From Deltaproteobacteria bacterium (GTDB lineage: Bacteria > Desulfobacterota > Desulfovibrionia > Desulfovibrionales > Desulfomicrobiaceae): DNA of 33,148 bases. Where the stretch lies: positions 1-33,148 of the forward strand of contig RZZR01000014.1 of the NCBI GenBank assembly GCA_009929795.1. Direction: 5' to 3'. Below are positions 714-10,315 of the stretch, in pieces. Under the pieces are notes generated by a model. The model did no database searches. It saw only the letters and a program-made list of their open reading frames with translations, and was not told where the DNA came from. The translations under genes were made by a program, and so were the position numbers. Every line of letters starts with the position of its first letter. Position 1 is the stretch's first letter.

Positions 714-2177
714 CTAGAAGTTCGACAATTCCTCGCGTAAGGTCCCGTCCGACTCGAAGATCTCGATCTTCAAGGGAACCCCGCCGGTGACCGTGTGCGT
801 GGCGCAGGCCAGGCAAAGGTCATAGGGCCTGAAGGCCATTTCCACATAGTTCAGGAGGCCTTCGTTGACTTGGCCGTCCTTGATGAAATGCTTGGCCGCC
901 TTTTTGACGGCCAGATTGATGGGGCCATTGTTGTGGGTCGTGGCCACGATGAGGTTGGCGTTGGTCACGATCCCCTTGTCGTCGGTCTGGTAGTGGTGGA
1001 TGAGGGTCCCGCGCGGGGCCTCGATGATGCCCACGCCCTCGCCGGTGATGGCGTAATTCTGGTTGACCGTGTCCGGGCTGGTGATCTCCGGATCGGCGGC
1101 CAGAATCTTGAGCTTCTCGGCCGCGCTCAGAAGTTCGATGGCCCGGGCCCAGTGGTAGGCCTGGATATAGTGAACCGGTCGGGAGTTGAAGGTCTCGTGG
1201 AACTGCTCGTAGGCCGCCTGTGCCAGGGGGGTGTCCATGCCGTTGCCCACGTTCATGCGGGCCAGCGGGCCAACACAGTACATGTTCGTGCCCTCGCCCT
1301 CGGTGATACCGCTCCATGGTCCCATCTTCTTCTGATACGGAAACTTGAGGTAGGACCAGGGCAAAACGCGCTCGGAAATGAAGTCCAGATAGCCCTTGCC
1401 GGTAAAGGTCCCGACCTCCCGGCCGTTCAGATCGATCACCTTTTGGGTGCCGTCGTAGTAGGTGACGCGGCCCTTCTCATCCACGCTGCCCATGTAGTTC
1501 ACCGGGACCTTGTACATGTCGCCGGTAACGAGCTTCATGTAGGCCTCGTTCTTGAGCACCACGTTGTCGAAGACCTGCAGGGTCAGCTTGCCCAATTCGA
1601 CCAGCTCGTCGGCCCAACCGGCCACCTGGACCCGTTCCTCCTCGGTCAGCCGCTTGGACCATCCGCCAGGGAGGGCGGCCACCGGGTGGTTGGGTTTTCC
1701 GCCAAGCATCTCGAAAATCTTCACCGCCAGGCCGCGCTTGCGCAGGACCTCACGGCCGATCTCGGCCCCGACCTTGCCGATCAGACCGATGATGTTTCGC
1801 TCGGCCGGGGAGGCTTCGGGTCCGACCACGAAATCGGGAAAGCCCAGAGCGTAGAGGATGACGGCATGGTCCTCGATATAGTGGGCGTTGAAGTACATCT
1901 CGCGGAGCTTTCGGCCGGTGCTCGTGGGCGTCACACCAAAGACCCCGTCCGAGGCCTTCATGGAGGCGGTGAAGTGCACTCCCCGGCAGACGCCGCAGAT
2001 GGTGGACACGGTCCGGGGGACCTCCTCCATGGGCATGCCCTGTAGAAACTTCTCGTAACCACGGAACTCCACGGTCTGAAAAAAGGCGTCGTCGACATTT
2101 CCCGCGTCGTCGAGGAAAATGGCGATCTTGCCATGGCCCTCCAAGCGGGTGATGGGATTAATTTCGATTTTTTTCAC
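714..2177 (-). CDS. mvhA: F420-non-reducing-type [NiFe] hydrogenase large subunit MvhA (group 3c-like)
   Basis: This is the catalytic subunit, carrying the NiFe(CN)2CO site that splits H2 in the cytoplasm. It is 487 residues long. The N-terminal L1 motif is at C61-C64 (ICGVCRGVH) and the C-terminal L2 motif at C455-C458-H461 (DLCLACATH). The 26 residues after H461 are the tail expected to be removed by the protease encoded next in the operon. The usual L2 motif is DPCxxCxxH; here the proline is leucine. The start is taken as GTG at 2177, six bases after a perfect AGGAGG; an in-frame ATG at 2198 lies inside the end of mvhG, and the Shine-Dalgarno would then be inside the gene. The mvhG stop TAG abuts this ribosome site. 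Partners are MvhG, MvhD and HdrABC, all in the same operon. Confidence 0.93.
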   Translation of the reverse strand: MKKIEINPITRLEGHGKIAIFLDDAGNVDDAFFQTVEFRGYEKFLQGMPMEEVPRTVSTICGVCRGVHFTASMKASDGVFGVTPTSTGRKLREMYFNAHYIEDHAVILYALGFPDFVVGPEASPAERNIIGLIGKVGAEIGREVLRKRGLAVKIFEMLGGKPNHPVAALPGGWSKRLTEEERVQVAGWADELVELGKLTLQVFDNVVLKNEAYMKLVTGDMYKVPVNYMGSVDEKGRVTYYDGTQKVIDLNGREVGTFTGKGYLDFISERVLPWSYLKFPYQKKMGPWSGITEGEGTNMYCVGPLARMNVGNGMDTPLAQAAYEQFHETFNSRPVHYIQAYHWARAIELLSAAEKLKILAADPEITSPDTVNQNYAITGEGVGIIEAPRGTLIHHYQTDDKGIVTNANLIVATTHNNGPINLAVKKAAKHFIKDGQVNEGLLNYVEMAFRPYDLCLACATHTVTGGVPLKIEIFESDGTLREELSNF

Positions 2178-2187
2178 GGCATTCCTC

Positions 2188-3159
2188 CTATCGGACATTG
2201 CTCTTCAGACGACTGGCCGGAAGCGAATAGCGGTAGACCAGCTTGGAGAGGACCGGGAATTTCTCCAGCAGCGAGTCGGTGGCCGCTTCGCTGCCGAGAA
2301 TGGAGCCGATGGCGCTAACGGCCCGGGCCCCGTAGTCCTTGATTCCCGGAATCGGGCCACCACATCCGCGGCAGGGCATGTTCACATTCAGACACGAGGC
2401 TCCGCAATCTCCCTGAGTGATCGGCCCCAGGCAGACGAAGCCGTGCTGAAGCAAGCAGCCCTTTTCCTCGGGCATGCCGTCAACCGTCCGCTTGACGGTC
2501 TCCACCGGGAGGCGCTCCAACTCCTCGTTGGCCGGATTGCGCTTGCACACGTCGCACACGGCTTTGCCGCTGGTCAGCCAAGACCCCTTGGGCGGCAGGT
2601 TGCCGGTGACGATGGCCTCAACGGCCTTGGCCACGAAACTGTGGTGCGGCGGACACCCGCCCACGTAGTAGTCCACCTCGACCAGATCCTGGATGGTCCG
2701 GACCTTGTCCTGGAAGGCCGGCAGGGTCAGATCGTACTTGCCGTCCAGGAAATACTGGGGCTGTGGATAGACACCGTCGGGATTCTCGGTGGAAAAGGTG
2801 TCCTTGTAGGCCTGCTTGAAGAGTTCGTCGTTGGTGTGGATGTTGGCCATGCCCGGGATGCCGCCCAGGGAGGCGCAGGCCCCGAAGGCCACGAGAATCT
2901 TGGATTTAGCCCGAAGAACGCGAACCATGTGCTCGTGCTCGCTCAGACGAACCATGCCGTCCACAAAGGCCAGGTCGATAGACTTGTCGGCCATGGCCTC
3001 GAGGTCCTTGTACTTTACGTCGGCCACGGTCGGGGCCCAAAAGACGACCTCGATGTGCTCCAGGGCGTCAAGCAGATTCTCGGACAGATCCACCAGGGCC
3101 ATCTCGCACCCGGCGCACCCACCGGCCAGCAAAAACGCAAACTTGATCTTGTCAGCCAT
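2188..3159 (-). CDS. mvhG: F420-non-reducing-type hydrogenase small subunit MvhG
   Basis: This 323-residue iron-sulfur subunit passes electrons from the NiFe site to MvhD. Near the N-terminus, AGGCAGCEMALVDL supplies two ligands of the proximal [4Fe-4S] cluster, with further cysteines in GACASLGG and VGGCPPHH. The C-terminal half has cysteines in CDVC, FVCLGP, GDCGASC and MPCRGCGGP, which fit the medial and distal clusters. No twin-arginine signal is present, so the enzyme is cytoplasmic, as expected for group 3. The start codon overlaps the mvhD stop in a TGATG arrangement, which indicates translational coupling. Confidence 0.93.
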   Translation of the reverse strand: MADKIKFAFLLAGGCAGCEMALVDLSENLLDALEHIEVVFWAPTVADVKYKDLEAMADKSIDLAFVDGMVRLSEHEHMVRVLRAKSKILVAFGACASLGGIPGMANIHTNDELFKQAYKDTFSTENPDGVYPQPQYFLDGKYDLTLPAFQDKVRTIQDLVEVDYYVGGCPPHHSFVAKAVEAIVTGNLPPKGSWLTSGKAVCDVCKRNPANEELERLPVETVKRTVDGMPEEKGCLLQHGFVCLGPITQGDCGASCLNVNMPCRGCGGPIPGIKDYGARAVSAIGSILGSEAATDSLLEKFPVLSKLVYRYSLPASRLKSNVR

Positions 3160-3575
3160 CACTTGCCCCCCTCCTTGACCGGATTGGGCCCCAGCTTGCG
3201 GAGCTCTTCCGTGTATTCGGTCATGACCTCGGCGAATTTCTTGCCCTCGGCCCCGGAGATCCATTCCCAGCGAAACCTCTCCGGCTCGTAGCCGAATTCC
3301 TGGACGATCTTCTTGATCATCTTCATCCGCCGGTCGGTCTTGTAGTTGCCTTCCTTGTAATGGCAGTCACCGAAATGACAGCCACCGACAAAGACGCCGT
3401 CCGCGCCCCGGGACAGGGCCTCCAGGACATATTCGGGCTCGACCCGGCCGGAACAAGGCACGCGGATGAGCTTGATGGTCGGCGGATACTTGCAGCGAAG
3501 GTTCCCGGCCAGGTCGGCTCCCGCATAGGTGCACCACTGACAGGCGAAACCGACGATGTTTGGGCTGAAATCCAT
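3159..3575 (-). CDS. mvhD: Methyl-viologen-reducing hydrogenase delta subunit MvhD
   Basis: This 138-residue protein bridges the hydrogenase to the heterodisulfide reductase through a [2Fe-2S] cluster. Cysteines occur in FACQWC near the N-terminus, in LRCKY, in VPCSGR and in GGCHFGDCHY, the pattern expected of the MvhD/FrhD family. The C-terminal half is charged and helical. It overlaps hdrB upstream and mvhG downstream by single bases (TAATG and TGATG), so the three should be translated in step. In methanogens MvhD docks on HdrA; here hdrA is the first gene of the same operon, which supports the same complex. Confidence 0.92.
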   Translation of the reverse strand: MDFSPNIVGFACQWCTYAGADLAGNLRCKYPPTIKLIRVPCSGRVEPEYVLEALSRGADGVFVGGCHFGDCHYKEGNYKTDRRMKMIKKIVQEFGYEPERFRWEWISGAEGKKFAEVMTEYTEELRKLGPNPVKEGGK

Positions 3576-4495
3576 TATTTCACCTCCTCTTGAACCTTTC
3601 GTTTGTCGGCTTGGATCTCGGCGATAATCGCATCCCTCGAGGTCTGGCTGATGGCCGCCACCTCCTTGGAATCAAAGCCCTGAGCCAAGGCCAGCAGCTG
3701 GGTGTAGTAGAAGACCGGAATTTCGTAGTCGATGATCCCGCGCTCACGGAAGATCTTCTGGGCTCCGTCCATCTGCAGATAACAGGACGAACAGGTGGTC
3801 ACGATCATATCCGGATCGAGTTCCTCTTTGATGGAATCGAATTTGCGCTTCAAAAGGCCAAAGGACTTCTCTTGATCCGTGCTCCGCATAGCCCCCATAC
3901 CGCAGCAATCGGCCAGGCGACTGTACTCGGGGGCGTCGGCGCCCAGGACCTTGCAGAGTTCGATGAGCTGGGTCGGATAGAAGGAGTTCTTCTCCTTGAC
4001 CTCCATGACATCCGACGGCCACAGGATGTGGCAACCGGGTTGAACGGCGATCTTCAGACCGTCCAGGCTGAATTTGAGAGAGGCCTTGATCCTGTCCAGT
4101 CCGATCTTGTCGTAGAGGACATGCGCCACGTGATAGACCTTGGACGCGCCCGTGTAGGATCGACCGATGGCTGAGAGGTTTTCGTTGACCACGCCCTTTT
4201 TGCCGGGCTTGTGATCGATCATGTGCTTGGCCTCGGAAAGGACACCAAAGCATGAATTGCAGCCGGTCATGAGGTCGACACCCCGTTCCTCGCCCAGGGT
4301 GATGTTTCGGGAGGATATGGTCAGCCAAGTATCCAGGTCGAACGATGGGGCCGTGCCCCAGGCCGGGCAGCAGGTGGCGCCGTCCAGGTCCACCGGCTCC
4401 ACGCCCAGGGCCGGGAAGACCTTGCGGAAGGACTGCTCGATGTCCGGGGCCTTGAAGGGAATGTTGCATCCCAGATAGAGTCCGTATTTTTCCAT
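3575..4495 (-). CDS. hdrB: Heterodisulfide reductase subunit B (HdrB)
   Basis: HdrB holds the two noncubane [4Fe-4S] clusters at which the disulfide substrate is reduced. Two complete CCG domains can be read in its 306 residues: C10, C42-C43, C79 and C82, then C155, C197-C198, C235 and C238. Every expected ligand is present, so this should be an active subunit and not a regulatory relative. Sulfate reducers do not make the CoM-S-S-CoB substrate of methanogens, so the physiological acceptor is unknown; a DsrC-type trisulfide or another thiol-disulfide is the usual proposal. It lies between hdrC (20-base gap) and mvhD (one-base overlap). Confidence 0.93.
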   Translation of the reverse strand: MEKYGLYLGCNIPFKAPDIEQSFRKVFPALGVEPVDLDGATCCPAWGTAPSFDLDTWLTISSRNITLGEERGVDLMTGCNSCFGVLSEAKHMIDHKPGKKGVVNENLSAIGRSYTGASKVYHVAHVLYDKIGLDRIKASLKFSLDGLKIAVQPGCHILWPSDVMEVKEKNSFYPTQLIELCKVLGADAPEYSRLADCCGMGAMRSTDQEKSFGLLKRKFDSIKEELDPDMIVTTCSSCYLQMDGAQKIFRERGIIDYEIPVFYYTQLLALAQGFDSKEVAAISQTSRDAIIAEIQADKRKVQEEVK

Positions 4496-4515
4496 GTGTA
4501 CAACTCCTTTCGTGC

Positions 4516-5031
4516 TTAGAAGATGCCCAGGTCGGCCATGGGGCTGTTGTCGAGGAGGGTCTGGATCTCCTTCTGAGCCTGGGCATTGTTGAGGGCCGTG
4601 GGAGGCACCGGATCGAGCCCGACCTTTTTCCGATTCTCGGCCGTTGCCTCGGTGGTCACGGCGTGACCGACCTGATACAGGCTCATCTGGGGGCCAAAGG
4701 CCGAGGTCGAAAGAGCCAGATCATTGGCCTGATAGCGGCGGTAGGCAAAGACCACCTCCTGAGGCCGAACCCCCTGGGGGCAGATCTCTGTGCAGCGATT
4801 GCACGACTGGCAGCCCCAGGTGGAGACCTCCTCGATGGTTTCCTCCATCTGCCCGTTCAGTATCTTGCGGATGAGCAGGCGGCACAGGACAGGGAACCCG
4901 GCTTTCACTCCTGGACAAACCGCGGAGCAGGCCCCGCACTGCACGCACTTGAGAATTCCGTCCCCACCAAGATCGATGATGGTCTGGACGGCTTCCTTGA
5001 TCTTGTCGTTCTCTATTATCAACGCAGGCAT
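4516..5031 (-). CDS. hdrC: Heterodisulfide reductase subunit C (HdrC)
   Basis: HdrC is a 171-residue ferredoxin-like subunit that carries electrons from HdrA to the active site in HdrB. It has two CxxCxxCxxxCP motifs, CVQCGACSAVCPG near residue 29 and CQSCNRCTEICPQG near residue 74, each able to bind one [4Fe-4S] cluster. There is no membrane segment, so this is the soluble HdrC and not an HdrD/DsrK fusion. It sits 12 bases downstream of hdrA. Confidence 0.93.
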   Translation of the reverse strand: MPALIIENDKIKEAVQTIIDLGGDGILKCVQCGACSAVCPGVKAGFPVLCRLLIRKILNGQMEETIEEVSTWGCQSCNRCTEICPQGVRPQEVVFAYRRYQANDLALSTSAFGPQMSLYQVGHAVTTEATAENRKKVGLDPVPPTALNNAQAQKEIQTLLDNSPMADLGIF

Positions 5032-5043
5032 GGAATCACTCCT

Positions 5044-7065
5044 CTAGGCGGTCAGGGCCGCGATTTGAGCGTAAATCTGGTCGTCCTCGTACCCGTGCAG
5101 GACAATGGCTCCGGATGGGCAGGCCGACGTGCACACCCCGCATCCATGACATTGAGTCATGTCGATTTCGGCCCTGGGCCGGTCGCCATGAATTTTCAGG
5201 CTGATGGCGTCGTACGGACACAGAGGCACGCAAATGCCGCAGCCACTGCATTTCTCGGTATGCACCTCTGACAGGATCGGCTCGATCTTGACCTTGCCCT
5301 GGGCCAGAGGCACGGCCGCTGCCGCCGCAGCGCCCTTGGCCTGGGAAACGGTATCAGGGATGTCCTTGGGCCCCTGACAGCATCCGGCCAGAAAGATGCC
5401 CCGAGTGGAGGTCTCAACCGGGCCCAACTTGGGATGGAGCTCCCGGAAGAAGTTGGAGCCGCAGAATTGCAGACCCAAGGTCTGGGCCAGCTTTTTGGCC
5501 GATTCGGGCAGTTCGATGGCCGTGGCCAGAATGACCAGGTCGGATTCGTACTCGATGGGCGTAGCCGACTCCATGTCGTAGGCCAGGACACGCAGCTTGT
5601 CGCCGGGCAGCATTTCCAGGCCGCCGACCTTGCCCTTGAAGATGTTCACACCCATCTTGCGGGCCCCGACATAGTATTCGTCATAGTCCTTGCCGGCCGT
5701 GCGGACGTCGATGAAGTGCATGTTGATGCTCAGGTCCGGATATTTCTCCTTGAGGAGACGGGCCTGTTTGATCATGTACATGCAGCAGACCCGGGAACAA
5801 TGGGTGTGGAACTTCTCGTCCCGGGAGCCCACGCAGGAAACGAAGGTCATGGTATGGGGCTTCTCGTTGTCCGAAGGTCGCAGGAGCTTGCCGCCGGTGG
5901 GGCCGGTGGCCGAGATGAGCCGCTCGAGTTGCAGGGCGGTGATGACATTGGGCGAATCCGGGGCCATCTCCTTGAACCAGCCCTTGTCCATGACTTGATA
6001 GCCGGTGGCCACGACAATGGAGCCGACCTTGATTTCCTCGATTCGCCCGTTGGGGTCGTGAGACAGACTGCGGTTGATGGCGTCGGCCGGACAGGCCTCC
6101 TGACAGGGGGCGATCATGGGTTCGCCTGTCTTCTTGCTGACCCTCGGCTCCTCGCCGAATTTGTGCCCTCGACAATTCAAACAATTGGCGGCGTCGATGA
6201 CCGCCTTCTTGGGTACGGCCTGGGGAAAATGGATGTATGCCGCCCCGCGGGCCGACAGGCCGAGATTGAACTCGTCCTTGATCTTCCCCTTGGTTTGTTC
6301 CAGGCAGACCTCGGCGCAGGCCCCGCAGCCGGTGCATTTGTGCCAGTCGATGTAGGTCTGCTTGCGTCGGATCTTGACGTCGAAATTGCCGATATAGCCT
6401 TCGACTTCCTCCACCTCGGAATAGGTCATGAGCTTGATGTTCGGGTGGTTCCCGGCATCGACCATGACCGGGGTCAGGATGCAGGCCGAGCAGTCGTTGG
6501 TCGGAAAGGTCTTGTCCAGCATGGCCATGACCCCGCCGATGGAAGGCTCCTTTTCCACCAGATAGGTGGTGAAGCCCATGTTGGCCAATTCCAGGGCCGA
6601 AAAGATTCCCCCGACTCCGCCGCCAACGACCAGAGCGGCCTTGGTCACGTCGACGTACTTGTCTTCCAGCGGGTGCAGGCGGGCGGCCTTGCCTACGGCC
6701 GAGGCCATGAGTTTCTTGGCCTTTTCCGTGGCCCCGGAGTGGTCTTGCCCATGAACCCAGGAATCCTGGTCACGGATGTTGGCCATCTCGAACAGATACT
6801 TATTCAGACCGGCTGCTTCGCAGGCGGCCCGGAAAATCGGCTCGTGGGTCCGGGGCGTGCAGGCGGCCACGACCACACGGTCCACCAGACCGGCCCGGAT
6901 ATCCTGCTTGATCATCTCCTGACCCGAGTCCGAACACATGAACAGGTCCTTGCGGGCCACGGCCACGTCGGGCAGGGTCTCGGCATGGGCCCGGACCGCC
7001 TCCACGTCGATGACCCCGGCGATGTTCGTGCCGCAATGACACACATACACCCCAACTTTCGCCAT
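5044..7065 (-). CDS. hdrA: Heterodisulfide reductase subunit A (HdrA), electron-bifurcating flavoprotein
   Basis: HdrA carries the FAD that splits electron pairs between ferredoxin and HdrB. In its 673 residues one sees an N-terminal CHCGTNIAGV segment (residues 9-18), the dinucleotide motif GGGVGG (148-153), an inserted ferredoxin-like region with CTGCGACAEVC (244-254) and further cysteines at 295, 298, 321 and 325, the internal cysteines C411, C423, C427 and C428, and a C-terminal ferredoxin with C606-C616 and C639-C649. This matches full-length HdrA. No in-frame TGA suggests selenocysteine. The start at 7065 has AAGGAGG before it; a longer frame reaches 7167 but runs through the leader hairpin. 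It is the first gene of the seven-gene operon. Confidence 0.94.
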   Translation of the reverse strand: MAKVGVYVCHCGTNIAGVIDVEAVRAHAETLPDVAVARKDLFMCSDSGQEMIKQDIRAGLVDRVVVAACTPRTHEPIFRAACEAAGLNKYLFEMANIRDQDSWVHGQDHSGATEKAKKLMASAVGKAARLHPLEDKYVDVTKAALVVGGGVGGIFSALELANMGFTTYLVEKEPSIGGVMAMLDKTFPTNDCSACILTPVMVDAGNHPNIKLMTYSEVEEVEGYIGNFDVKIRRKQTYIDWHKCTGCGACAEVCLEQTKGKIKDEFNLGLSARGAAYIHFPQAVPKKAVIDAANCLNCRGHKFGEEPRVSKKTGEPMIAPCQEACPADAINRSLSHDPNGRIEEIKVGSIVVATGYQVMDKGWFKEMAPDSPNVITALQLERLISATGPTGGKLLRPSDNEKPHTMTFVSCVGSRDEKFHTHCSRVCCMYMIKQARLLKEKYPDLSINMHFIDVRTAGKDYDEYYVGARKMGVNIFKGKVGGLEMLPGDKLRVLAYDMESATPIEYESDLVILATAIELPESAKKLAQTLGLQFCGSNFFRELHPKLGPVETSTRGIFLAGCCQGPKDIPDTVSQAKGAAAAAAVPLAQGKVKIEPILSEVHTEKCSGCGICVPLCPYDAISLKIHGDRPRAEIDMTQCHGCGVCTSACPSGAIVLHGYEDDQIYAQIAALTA

Positions 7066-7352: not shown

Positions 7353-7384
7353 AAAAAAGCCCGGCAGGATAAATCCCACCGGGC
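7353..7384 (-). terminator. Intrinsic terminator after the peroxiredoxin gene
   Basis: On the minus strand the stem GCCCGG...CCGGGC (7359-7384), with an inner GGAT/ATCC pairing, is followed by six T (7353-7358). It begins 28 bases past the peroxiredoxin stop and closes the reductase-activator-peroxiredoxin operon. Confidence 0.85.
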
Positions 7385-7411
7385 TCGACATCGATCACCA
7401 CGACCAATGAG

Positions 7412-8128
7412 CTACTTTTTGAGTATGGCCTTGAAGACCGTATCTTTGTCGATCTTTTTGGTGCAGAAAAACCAGTCGTGGCAGGTCATGCCTTCCTGTC
7501 CATCCATGCGATCCTTGGCCACCCCACAGGAGCCGGCCGGGGGCACGATGACCTCGTCGCCGGGTCGCCAATCGGCCGGTGTGGCTACACCGAATTCGTC
7601 GGCCGTCTGCAGGGCGATGAGAATGCGGTACATCTCGTCGAAATTCCGGCCAAGGCTCAGGGGATAGTAGACGATGGTCCTGATGACCCCCTTTGGATCG
7701 ATGAAGAAGACGGCCCGCACGGCCTTGGTCGTGCTTTCGCCGGGCTGAATCATCCCGTATTTCTTGGCCACTTCCATGGTGATGTCCTCGATGAGCGGAA
7801 AGGTGACCTCGATGTTCTTCATTCCCTTGAACTCGATCTTCTCCTTGATGGTCCTCAACCAGGCAATGTGACTGTAGAGACCGTCCACGGACAGGCCGAC
7901 CAGTTTGCAACCGGCCTCGTTGAACTGCTTTTCCATGGCCGCGAAGGTCATGAACTCCGAGGTGCACACAGGCGTGAAATCGGCCGGGTGGCTGAAGAGG
8001 ATGACCCAGCTGCCCTGGTACTGTTCGGGAAACTTGAGCTCCCCCTGGGTGGTCACGGCCGTGAAGGCCGGGGCCTTGTCTCCGATGCGGGGCATGCTGA
8101 TGGCTTCTGTTGTCTGCTGGGCTTCCAT
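7412..8128 (-). CDS. Peroxiredoxin, archaeal thioredoxin-peroxidase (Prx6-like) type
   Basis: This 238-residue enzyme should reduce hydrogen peroxide and alkyl hydroperoxides using a thiol donor. The peroxidatic cysteine is C55 in PADFTPVCTSE. The C-terminal domain ends with CHDWFFC, a C-x5-C pair like the C207/C213 pair of Aeropyrum pernix thioredoxin peroxidase, which places it with the decameric archaeal-type Prx6 group; an extra cysteine lies in AGSCGVAKD. The start at 8128 follows a GGAGG. An in-frame ATG at 8158 would overlap the activator gene. The gene is 33 bases downstream of the activator ATPase gene with no terminator between, so it is probably co-transcribed with the double-cubane reductase. 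Confidence 0.92.
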   Translation of the reverse strand: MEAQQTTEAISMPRIGDKAPAFTAVTTQGELKFPEQYQGSWVILFSHPADFTPVCTSEFMTFAAMEKQFNEAGCKLVGLSVDGLYSHIAWLRTIKEKIEFKGMKNIEVTFPLIEDITMEVAKKYGMIQPGESTTKAVRAVFFIDPKGVIRTIVYYPLSLGRNFDEMYRILIALQTADEFGVATPADWRPGDEVIVPPAGSCGVAKDRMDGQEGMTCHDWFFCTKKIDKDTVFKAILKK

Positions 8129-8161
8129 GATGAATACCTCCTGATTGTAGGGTGTCATGCG

Positions 8162-8932
8162 TTACTGGACGGAACCGTACAGGGCCGCTCCAAGGGCCCC
8201 GACCATATCGGGATTATCGGGAACGACTGGCTCGCGTCCCAGGGCCCGACTCACGAGCTCGACCACGCATGGATTGCGGGCCACGCCGCCGGCAAAAACC
8301 ACCGGATGCGTGAGGCCCACCCGGCCGAGCATGTTCATGGTCCTCTTGACGATGGAGGCGTGCAGACCCAGGGCGATGTTTTCGGGACGATGCCCCTGGG
8401 CCATGAGGGACGTTGCCTCGGTCTCGGCGAAAACCGTGCACATGGAGTTGATGGTCAGGGCCTCGTCGCCTTGCAGGGCGTAGGCCCCGAACTCCTCGAT
8501 GGAAATCTGGAAAACGTTGGCCACGTGCTCCAGAAACTTGCCCGTGCCCGCGGCGCAACGGTCGTTCATCTCGAACTTGAGAACCCGGCCGTCCCCGGTC
8601 AGGCTGATGGCCTTGGTGTCCTGCCCGCCGATGTCCAGGACCGTTCGGGCCTCGGGCGACAGATCGCGCACGCCAAGGGCGTAAGCCTTGATCTCGGTGA
8701 TGGTCTCAACGGGCGGACCATTGTCTTCGGCCAGGGTCTGGGCCACGAGGGTCCGGCCGTAGCCCGTGGCCGTGACCCGTTCCAGAGGCAACCCGGCTAC
8801 GAGGGACCGAATCTGGCCCCGGGGGTCGAAGGTCGTGGGTCGACGGGCCGTGTGGACCACGGCCCCGTCACGTCGGCAGACCAGTTCGATGGACCGCGAG
8901 CCGACATCAATGCCGGCGATCATTCCGGGCAT
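8162..8932 (-). CDS. ATPase activator of double-cubane reductase (BcrAD/BadFG/HgdC family, YjiL-like)
   Basis: Such activators are homodimeric [4Fe-4S] proteins of the ASKHA fold that hydrolyse ATP to push one low-potential electron into a partner enzyme. In its 256 residues one sees the first phosphate loop IAGIDVGSRSIEL, the second DIGGQDTKAI, and the two cluster cysteines expected one per motif, in NDRCAAGTGKFLE and in SMCTVFAETEA (the equivalents of C127 and C166 of HgdC). The start ATG directly follows the stop of the reductase gene with no gap. Its electron donor would be reduced ferredoxin or flavodoxin, which is family knowledge. Confidence 0.92.
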   Translation of the reverse strand: MPGMIAGIDVGSRSIELVCRRDGAVVHTARRPTTFDPRGQIRSLVAGLPLERVTATGYGRTLVAQTLAEDNGPPVETITEIKAYALGVRDLSPEARTVLDIGGQDTKAISLTGDGRVLKFEMNDRCAAGTGKFLEHVANVFQISIEEFGAYALQGDEALTINSMCTVFAETEATSLMAQGHRPENIALGLHASIVKRTMNMLGRVGLTHPVVFAGGVARNPCVVELVSRALGREPVVPDNPDMVGALGAALYGSVQ

Positions 8933-10207
8933 CTACTTCAGCATCTCCACGAATGCCTCGACCCGGGTCTTCAATTGTTCCACGTCCTCCATGGAATAAT
9001 CCGTTTCGATGGCCAGGGAGGGGATACTTTCCTTCTCCAGACGGTTGCCCAGCTTGATGGCCTCATGGCCGTAGGGCTGGCAGAACATGAGGGTGTACTG
9101 GACGACCCCATCGGCCTTGAGTTCCCGGGCTATGGCCGCCACGTTGTCCATGCGCTCGGTGTTGGGCGTGAAGCAGGCGCAGTCGATCTTCAGATACCGG
9201 TCCACGATGGTCTCGATCATTTCTTCCAGGGTCTCGCCCGACTCGTCCACCAGATCCCGGGTGTTTCGGGTGCCGATGCAGGACTCCTCGCCGACGATGA
9301 CCGCCCCGGAACTCTCGATGACATAGGGCAGCTTCCAGTTGGGCACGGCCATGGGGCAACCCGAAAGCAACAGCCGCGGAGTGCCCTTGGGAGCCACGCC
9401 TTGCCCGGCCTTGATCCGTTCTTCGATCTGATCGCACAGGGTCGAAATGGAGGCCGTGAACCGCACCGGGTCGTCGTAGAAACCGACCTGGTTGATGAGC
9501 AGGGCGTCCCGACCCGAGATGGGGGCCGGATCGGCTTCCCGAAGACGGTTCAACCGCTGAAGGACCCGCCTGCGATCGTTCACGGTCTTGATGGCCGCCT
9601 TGAGTTTTTCGGCGGTGATGGTTTTTCCAGTCAACTTCTCCACCTCGACCATGTAGCGCAGGACCTCGGCTTTCCAGAGCTCGCGGTCGCAGGCCCGTTT
9701 CTGCTGCGGGACCTCCATGACCAGCATGGGCACGAGTTCGCCAAAGGCCTCGTAGGCCTTTTTCTTGCCGTCGCAGGTGGTCTCGCCCACGATCAAATCG
9801 CAGGACTCGGTAAAGGGACAGAGCTTGGCCATCTTGAAACCGATGAAGGACTTGATCAGGGCGCAGGTGTTGCGGGGAACGAGCTTTTCGGCCTCCTCCT
9901 TGCCGGCGTCGGCCCCGGAACAGAGGCCCACATGGACCGCGTCGGCGGCCAGGCTGATCTCCTCGGGCACGAAGACGCAGAACGACCCGATGACCTTCCG
10001 GCCCTGAGCCTTGGCGTCCTGAAGCTCCTTGATCCGCAGGCCGTGGACCTCGGACAGGACGAAATCCAGATACTCCATGCCCTGAAGCCGGCCCTGCTGG
10101 GACATGTAGATGTCGCCGTAGAACTTGCCCAGAACCTGAAGCAGGCCATCATGGGCCGGCAGATCAAGATTCAGCTTCTCCCACATCTCATGATACGATT
10201 GGCTCAT
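8933..10207 (-). CDS. Double-cubane cluster reductase (2-hydroxyacyl-CoA dehydratase subunit D family, DCCP/YjiM-like)
   Basis: This 424-residue protein belongs to the HgdB/FldB superfamily but stands alone, without the second dehydratase subunit, next to one activator. That is the arrangement of the double-cubane cluster protein of Carboxydothermus hydrogenoformans and of E. coli YjiM-YjiL. Cysteines that could hold the [8Fe-9S] cluster occur at C77, C96, C115, C130, C136, C145, C284, C310, C343, C345 and C376, with motifs TCALIKS, CPFTESCDLIVGETTCDGKKK-like spacing, SGCPMAVPN and EESCIGTRN. The characterised relative reduces small molecules such as acetylene, azide and hydrazine in an ATP-dependent way, but its natural substrate is unknown. 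The ATG at 10207 has a GAGGAG site; an upstream in-frame ATG at 10246 lacks one. Confidence 0.9.
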   Translation of the reverse strand: MSQSYHEMWEKLNLDLPAHDGLLQVLGKFYGDIYMSQQGRLQGMEYLDFVLSEVHGLRIKELQDAKAQGRKVIGSFCVFVPEEISLAADAVHVGLCSGADAGKEEAEKLVPRNTCALIKSFIGFKMAKLCPFTESCDLIVGETTCDGKKKAYEAFGELVPMLVMEVPQQKRACDRELWKAEVLRYMVEVEKLTGKTITAEKLKAAIKTVNDRRRVLQRLNRLREADPAPISGRDALLINQVGFYDDPVRFTASISTLCDQIEERIKAGQGVAPKGTPRLLLSGCPMAVPNWKLPYVIESSGAVIVGEESCIGTRNTRDLVDESGETLEEMIETIVDRYLKIDCACFTPNTERMDNVAAIARELKADGVVQYTLMFCQPYGHEAIKLGNRLEKESIPSLAIETDYSMEDVEQLKTRVEAFVEMLK

Positions 10208-10287
10208 ACTGTTCTCCTCGGAATGGTTCTTGTTTATGGAATCCATCCTATACCCTTGGTCAGGGGAGAAAAGTCAAATCATTCCAG

Positions 10288-10315
10288 TCTATAGCCAAAC
10301 CAATTCACAATTCAA
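10288..10315 (-). promoter_or_regulatory. Candidate sigma-70 promoter of the double-cubane reductase operon
   Basis: On the minus strand, TTGAAT (10315-10310) and TATAGA (10293-10288) are 16 bases apart, close to the housekeeping consensus. Transcription would start near 10281, leaving a leader of about 74 bases. The heptamer TCTATAG occurs at 10288-10294 and again at 10320-10326, 32 bases apart, and CTATAG is itself a palindrome, so a regulator could contact both copies, one of them overlapping the -10 box. Confidence 0.45.

Follow-up and report, generated by a model that had tools for sequence, protein, structure and literature searches.

The window analysed here, a stretch of 33,148 nucleotides, carries three genes on the minus strand, which encode, in this order, a double-cubane cluster protein (DCCP; 8933..10207), its DCCP reductase/activator (8162..8932), and a peroxiredoxin of 237 aa (7412..8125). 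The DCCP belongs to the long type, with about 60 N-terminal residues ahead of the NF040772 core, and the activator is a HgdC/BadF-type ATPase. The open frame of the DCCP extends to 10246; its start is most likely the ATG at 10207, because a GAGGAG lies just upstream and the homologues align from about residue 14-17. The DCCP gene directly abuts the activator gene (TAG-ATG, a gap of 0 bases). The peroxiredoxin gene has a ribosome-binding site (AGGAGG) of its own and begins at 8125, 36 bases behind the activator gene. The earlier note on this DNA was right about the three genes, their order, strand and identities, and about the zero gap; its second gap, given as 33 bases, is replaced by 36. The three genes probably form one operon, and their co-transcription is predicted.

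A good terminator follows these genes, whereas their promoter is weak. The intrinsic terminator described earlier 3' of the peroxiredoxin gene (7357..7386, minus strand) is present as a sequence, with a 13-bp stem, 8 GC pairs, a 4-nt loop and a T run; as a class, such sites were no commoner in the window than in shuffled sequences (3 found versus 3.4 expected). The promoter-like element at 10288..10315 (minus strand; TTGAAT-16-TATAGA) also exists as a sequence, with 8/12 matches, but a sigma-70 scan of the window gave no site above threshold, this element included. It is a weak, putative promoter, and unproven. An alternative promoter-like site at 10277-10247 has 9/12 matches and a long spacer of 19 nt.

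The assignment of a double-cubane reductase and an ATPase activator was supported by family scores, solved relatives and conserved cysteines. The DCCP scored 478.3 bits against the family profile NF040772 double_cubane (cut-off 350), and its best solved relatives were 7yyl/6eno (E 7e-137). The activator scored 200.8 bits against TIGR00241 (cut-off 125.4), and matched 7yyl_E (the activator chain of 7yyl) and 4eht. Seven cysteines of the DCCP (Cys90, 109, 128, 158, 323, 356 and 389, numbered from 10246) were invariant in 107/107 sequences and, judged by this conservation, could be the cluster ligands; the two cluster cysteines of the activator, C126 and C165, were both present in 95/95 homologues. 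DCCP and activator together are an unremarkable example of a known system whose structure has been solved. In the chemistry that we infer for it, a low-potential donor, for instance ferredoxin, would give electrons to the activator, and ATP hydrolysis would drive their transfer to the [8Fe-9S] cluster of the DCCP, which would then reduce a small substrate. DCCPs reduce acetylene, hydrazine and azide in vitro, whereas their biological function has been called unknown (PMC11971306). At some other loci (L015, L037, L038, L044, L049, L073 and L096), a second, shorter DCCP without the N-terminal extension (about 36% identical) is found in the same gene cluster.

The peroxiredoxin is of the PRK13189 type (Prx6/archaeal-type) and scored 331.3 bits against NF009668/PRK13189 (cut-off 211); 5ovq, 6itz and 2cv4 are among its many PDB relatives. 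The peroxidatic Cys54 lies in TPVCTSE, the PxxxTxxC motif reads PADFTPVC, and the C215-x5-C221 tail is CHDWFFC (residues 215-221). The earlier description of the enzyme as archaeal-type holds for its structural family, whereas enzymes of this type are frequent among bacteria of the same phylum.

Conservation of the gene arrangement was examined in 80 DCCP loci from public genomes and in loci from 61 genomes, the majority of which belong to the same family and order; the two surveys overlap in some genomes, and not all counts are independent. Moreover, 395 genomes of the phylum were searched with the peroxiredoxin and the DCCP as queries, and the 61 relatives were searched with both. In 91/106 loci, no more than 400 nt separated the activator from the end of the DCCP gene. 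By contrast, no peroxiredoxin was found downstream of the DCCP in any other surveyed locus, although in 88 of them the sequence continued for 1.5 kb or more on that side. Nor is there a peroxiredoxin beside the closest DCCPs (83-84% identical; L002, L082 and L083, including the sister genus, G002 and G007), and the sister genus has only a 48% identical peroxiredoxin elsewhere in the genome. The flanks of the window share no synteny with the sister genome locus beyond the DCCP and its activator. A long DCCP occurs together with a good match to the peroxiredoxin in about 21 genomes; in 18 of these, the two genes are widely separated or lie on different contigs, and the other three are the window's genome, G015 and G016. 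The earlier note had named linkage in this genome alone as a result that would refute its claim; for a peroxiredoxin within the operon, this is what the count showed, and the 'fixed pairing' that had been proposed is refuted. A conserved DCCP-activator-peroxiredoxin operon was ruled out by the DCCP-centred and the peroxiredoxin-centred surveys alike. In a literature search, no publication that pairs a DCCP with a peroxiredoxin came up, as would be expected if no such pairing exists in general.

One other case of proximity was found within the same family. G015 and G016 (L088/L084) carry a different PRK13189 peroxiredoxin, 44% identical, which is divergently oriented about 380 bp upstream of the DCCP. 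The proximity of DCCP and peroxiredoxin thus arose at most twice.

The relatives of the peroxiredoxin suggest where it might have come from. Among the 395 phylum genomes, its nearest relatives are found in G398 (81%), G132 (75%) and G160 (68%), all from other families. In the tree, the window peroxiredoxin groups with those of G398 and G132 (support 92/99 and 87/91) and is separate from the types that its own family harbours. None of these nearest relatives is linked to a DCCP; the one in G398 adjoins a CoA-disulfide-reductase-like gene (L122). Since the nearest relatives belong to other families and are unlinked to DCCP, the comparison suggests that the peroxiredoxin was inserted behind an older DCCP-activator pair.

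The likely reading is therefore an ordinary DCCP and DCCP-reductase pair with an incidental neighbour. In the simplest form of this account, a stand-alone, peroxide-scavenging peroxiredoxin came to sit behind the DCCP-activator pair in this lineage, and it would probably be read through from that pair. The pairing looks incidental because this genome is the only one in which a peroxiredoxin is found behind the DCCP-activator pair. The peroxiredoxin does not belong to the DCCP system, and at most benefits from the same expression; its co-transcription with the pair and its acquisition by insertion are what we infer from the arrangement and the gene relationships.

It is also conceivable, if unlikely, that the peroxiredoxin serves as a dedicated guard, recruited into the operon because it clears peroxide that could otherwise destroy the oxygen-labile double-cubane cluster. 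The tight co-directional spacing and the separate ribosome-binding site would be in line with this role, and so would the second, independent proximity in G015 and G016. Chance would not readily place PRK13189-type peroxiredoxins near DCCP twice, independently, in one family, and a functional reason is therefore possible. However, comparative support extends to these two proximities within one family, and every other surveyed DCCP locus, including those of the close sisters, manages without a peroxiredoxin. The anaerobes concerned are rich in oxygen-labile proteins that have no private peroxidase, and the nearest relatives of the peroxiredoxin are unlinked to DCCP.

Another proposal turns from the peroxiredoxin to the genes beyond the terminator, where an HdrA-HdrC-HdrB-MvhD-MvhG-MvhA operon lies downstream on the minus strand (window 714-7065). 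This operon might be the more telling neighbour and would supply low-potential ferredoxin to the activator. Electron-transfer proteins, either MvhD or HdrC/DsrK-like, occur near the DCCP in 12/80 loci; most are encoded on the same strand, and many directly adjoin it. On the other hand, a terminator separates the two operons in the window, the sister genomes have no Hdr/Mvh genes near the DCCP, and the linked Fe-S proteins elsewhere are DsrK/HmcF-like, unlike the HdrB/HdrC of the window; we hold this proposal to be improbable. In several loci (L022, L028, L030, L034, L041, L057, L060 and L061), a DsrK/HmcF/HdrD-like Fe-S protein is encoded directly before the DCCP or after the activator, in some of them together with MvhD, and this protein is a possible electron donor.

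Least probable is the view that the three proteins share one redox task (on a peroxide, sulfur or nitrogen compound), in which the peroxiredoxin would share the substrate or the product of the other two; the operon-like arrangement is the one point in its favour, but the arrangement is not conserved in any other genome examined, and peroxiredoxins of this type are widespread without DCCP.

The preferred reading, an incidental peroxiredoxin behind an ordinary pair, leaves the substrate of the DCCP to be sought among its recurring neighbours. All open frames in the 80 DCCP loci were clustered, and the recurring families include YedF, SelD, SelB, a rhodanese-like lipoprotein with a DoxX-like gene, an ABC-transporter ATPase and PstS, as well as MvhD and DsrK-like electron-transfer proteins and the shorter DCCP paralogue (about 36% identity). 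YedF, SelD and SelB, whose assignments were borne out by scores above the family cut-offs, rank near the top. At least one of the three was present in 17/80 DCCP loci, and tRNA-Sec genes were found in five of the 80. SelD lies within 5 kb of the DCCP in at least five phylum genomes from four or more families (G104, G131, G134, G144 and G220), whereas less than one genome would be expected by chance (an estimate from about 10-20 kb of a 3 Mb genome and some 60-100 genomes). In the window itself, no SelD, SelB, YedF or tRNA-Sec is found next to the DCCP; its genome (G000) does contain SelD, SelB and YedF, all unlinked to the DCCP as far as the contigs show.

Further observations were made at these loci. 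Apparent selenium islands, in which the DCCP and its activator lie amid SelB, tRNA-Sec, SelD and YedF, were seen in L065, L072, L074, L077, L079 and others. In addition, tRNAs of 90-92 nt that resemble tRNA-Sec are present at L070:7155-7244, L073:9126-9217 and L024:1700-1791. They have a long variable arm and are very similar to the tRNA-Sec of L072; their anticodon is GCA and ARAGORN calls them tRNA-Cys. Those of L070 and L073 lie directly before SelB. Judged by these features, the three tRNAs are candidates for an assignment of selenocysteine to cysteine codons.

Because the recurring neighbours in other genomes, not in the window, are SelD, SelB, tRNA-Sec and YedF, a role of the DCCP in selenium (or related sulfur) metabolism may be put forward tentatively as the best guess, for example the delivery of a reduced selenium species to SelD; this step is far less certain than the rest of the account. 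A more specific version, which must be taken as slightly more doubtful, is that the long-type DCCP and its ATP-driven activator serve selenium assimilation and would reduce a selenium compound, oxidised or organic (or a persulfide-like one), to selenide for SelD; the peroxiredoxin would have been added in this lineage, perhaps against peroxide from selenol autoxidation. If true, the orphan double-cubane reductase would thereby have a natural substrate. No SelD match was found in several long-DCCP genomes (G169, G200, G204 and apparently G281), and the DCCP is therefore not strictly tied to selenium use. A correlation of presence and absence between DCCP and SelD was also considered and proved too weak, since SelD is present in 348/395 genomes.

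The earlier observation of the operon is essentially correct, whereas its central inference is not; this looks like a known kind of operon with an incidental third gene. The clue to the DCCP substrate that had been proposed, a fixed peroxiredoxin partner, fails on genome comparison. The recurring selenium neighbours are a better and directly testable clue to the natural substrate of double-cubane proteins.

The selenium link itself is not new. Lin et al. 2015 listed a '2-hydroxyglutaryl-CoA dehydratase subunit' and an activase among the STRING partners of selenium genes in Slackia, with links to YedF, LysR_Se and DUF3343, and did not propose them as selenium genes (PMC5322559); a 2023 preprint provisionally linked a 'dicubane cluster protein' to selenium metabolism (PMC10418091). 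The present survey extends the link to the long-type DCCPs of sulfate reducers and relatives. Many homologous loci, with DCCP and activator beside SelB, SelD and YedF, may be likened to the selenium/methyl-selenide clusters (type I MGCs, PMC10418091), whereas the window DCCP, in contrast to these clusters and to the Slackia links, is not beside selenium genes. With other PRK13189/NF009668 peroxiredoxins (PDB 5ovq, 2cv4 and relatives), the window enzyme has in common a score well above the cut-off, the PxxxTxxC motif and the C-x5-C tail; the window copy lies in a DCCP operon, whereas the others stand alone or beside other genes. The closest known system is the DCCP and DCCP reductase of Carboxydothermus hydrogenoformans (PDB 6eno, 7yyl), in which the DCCP is of the same long type almost from end to end and likewise has an adjacent HgdC-type activator with two cluster cysteines; the window pair belongs to a different phylum and has a peroxiredoxin behind it.
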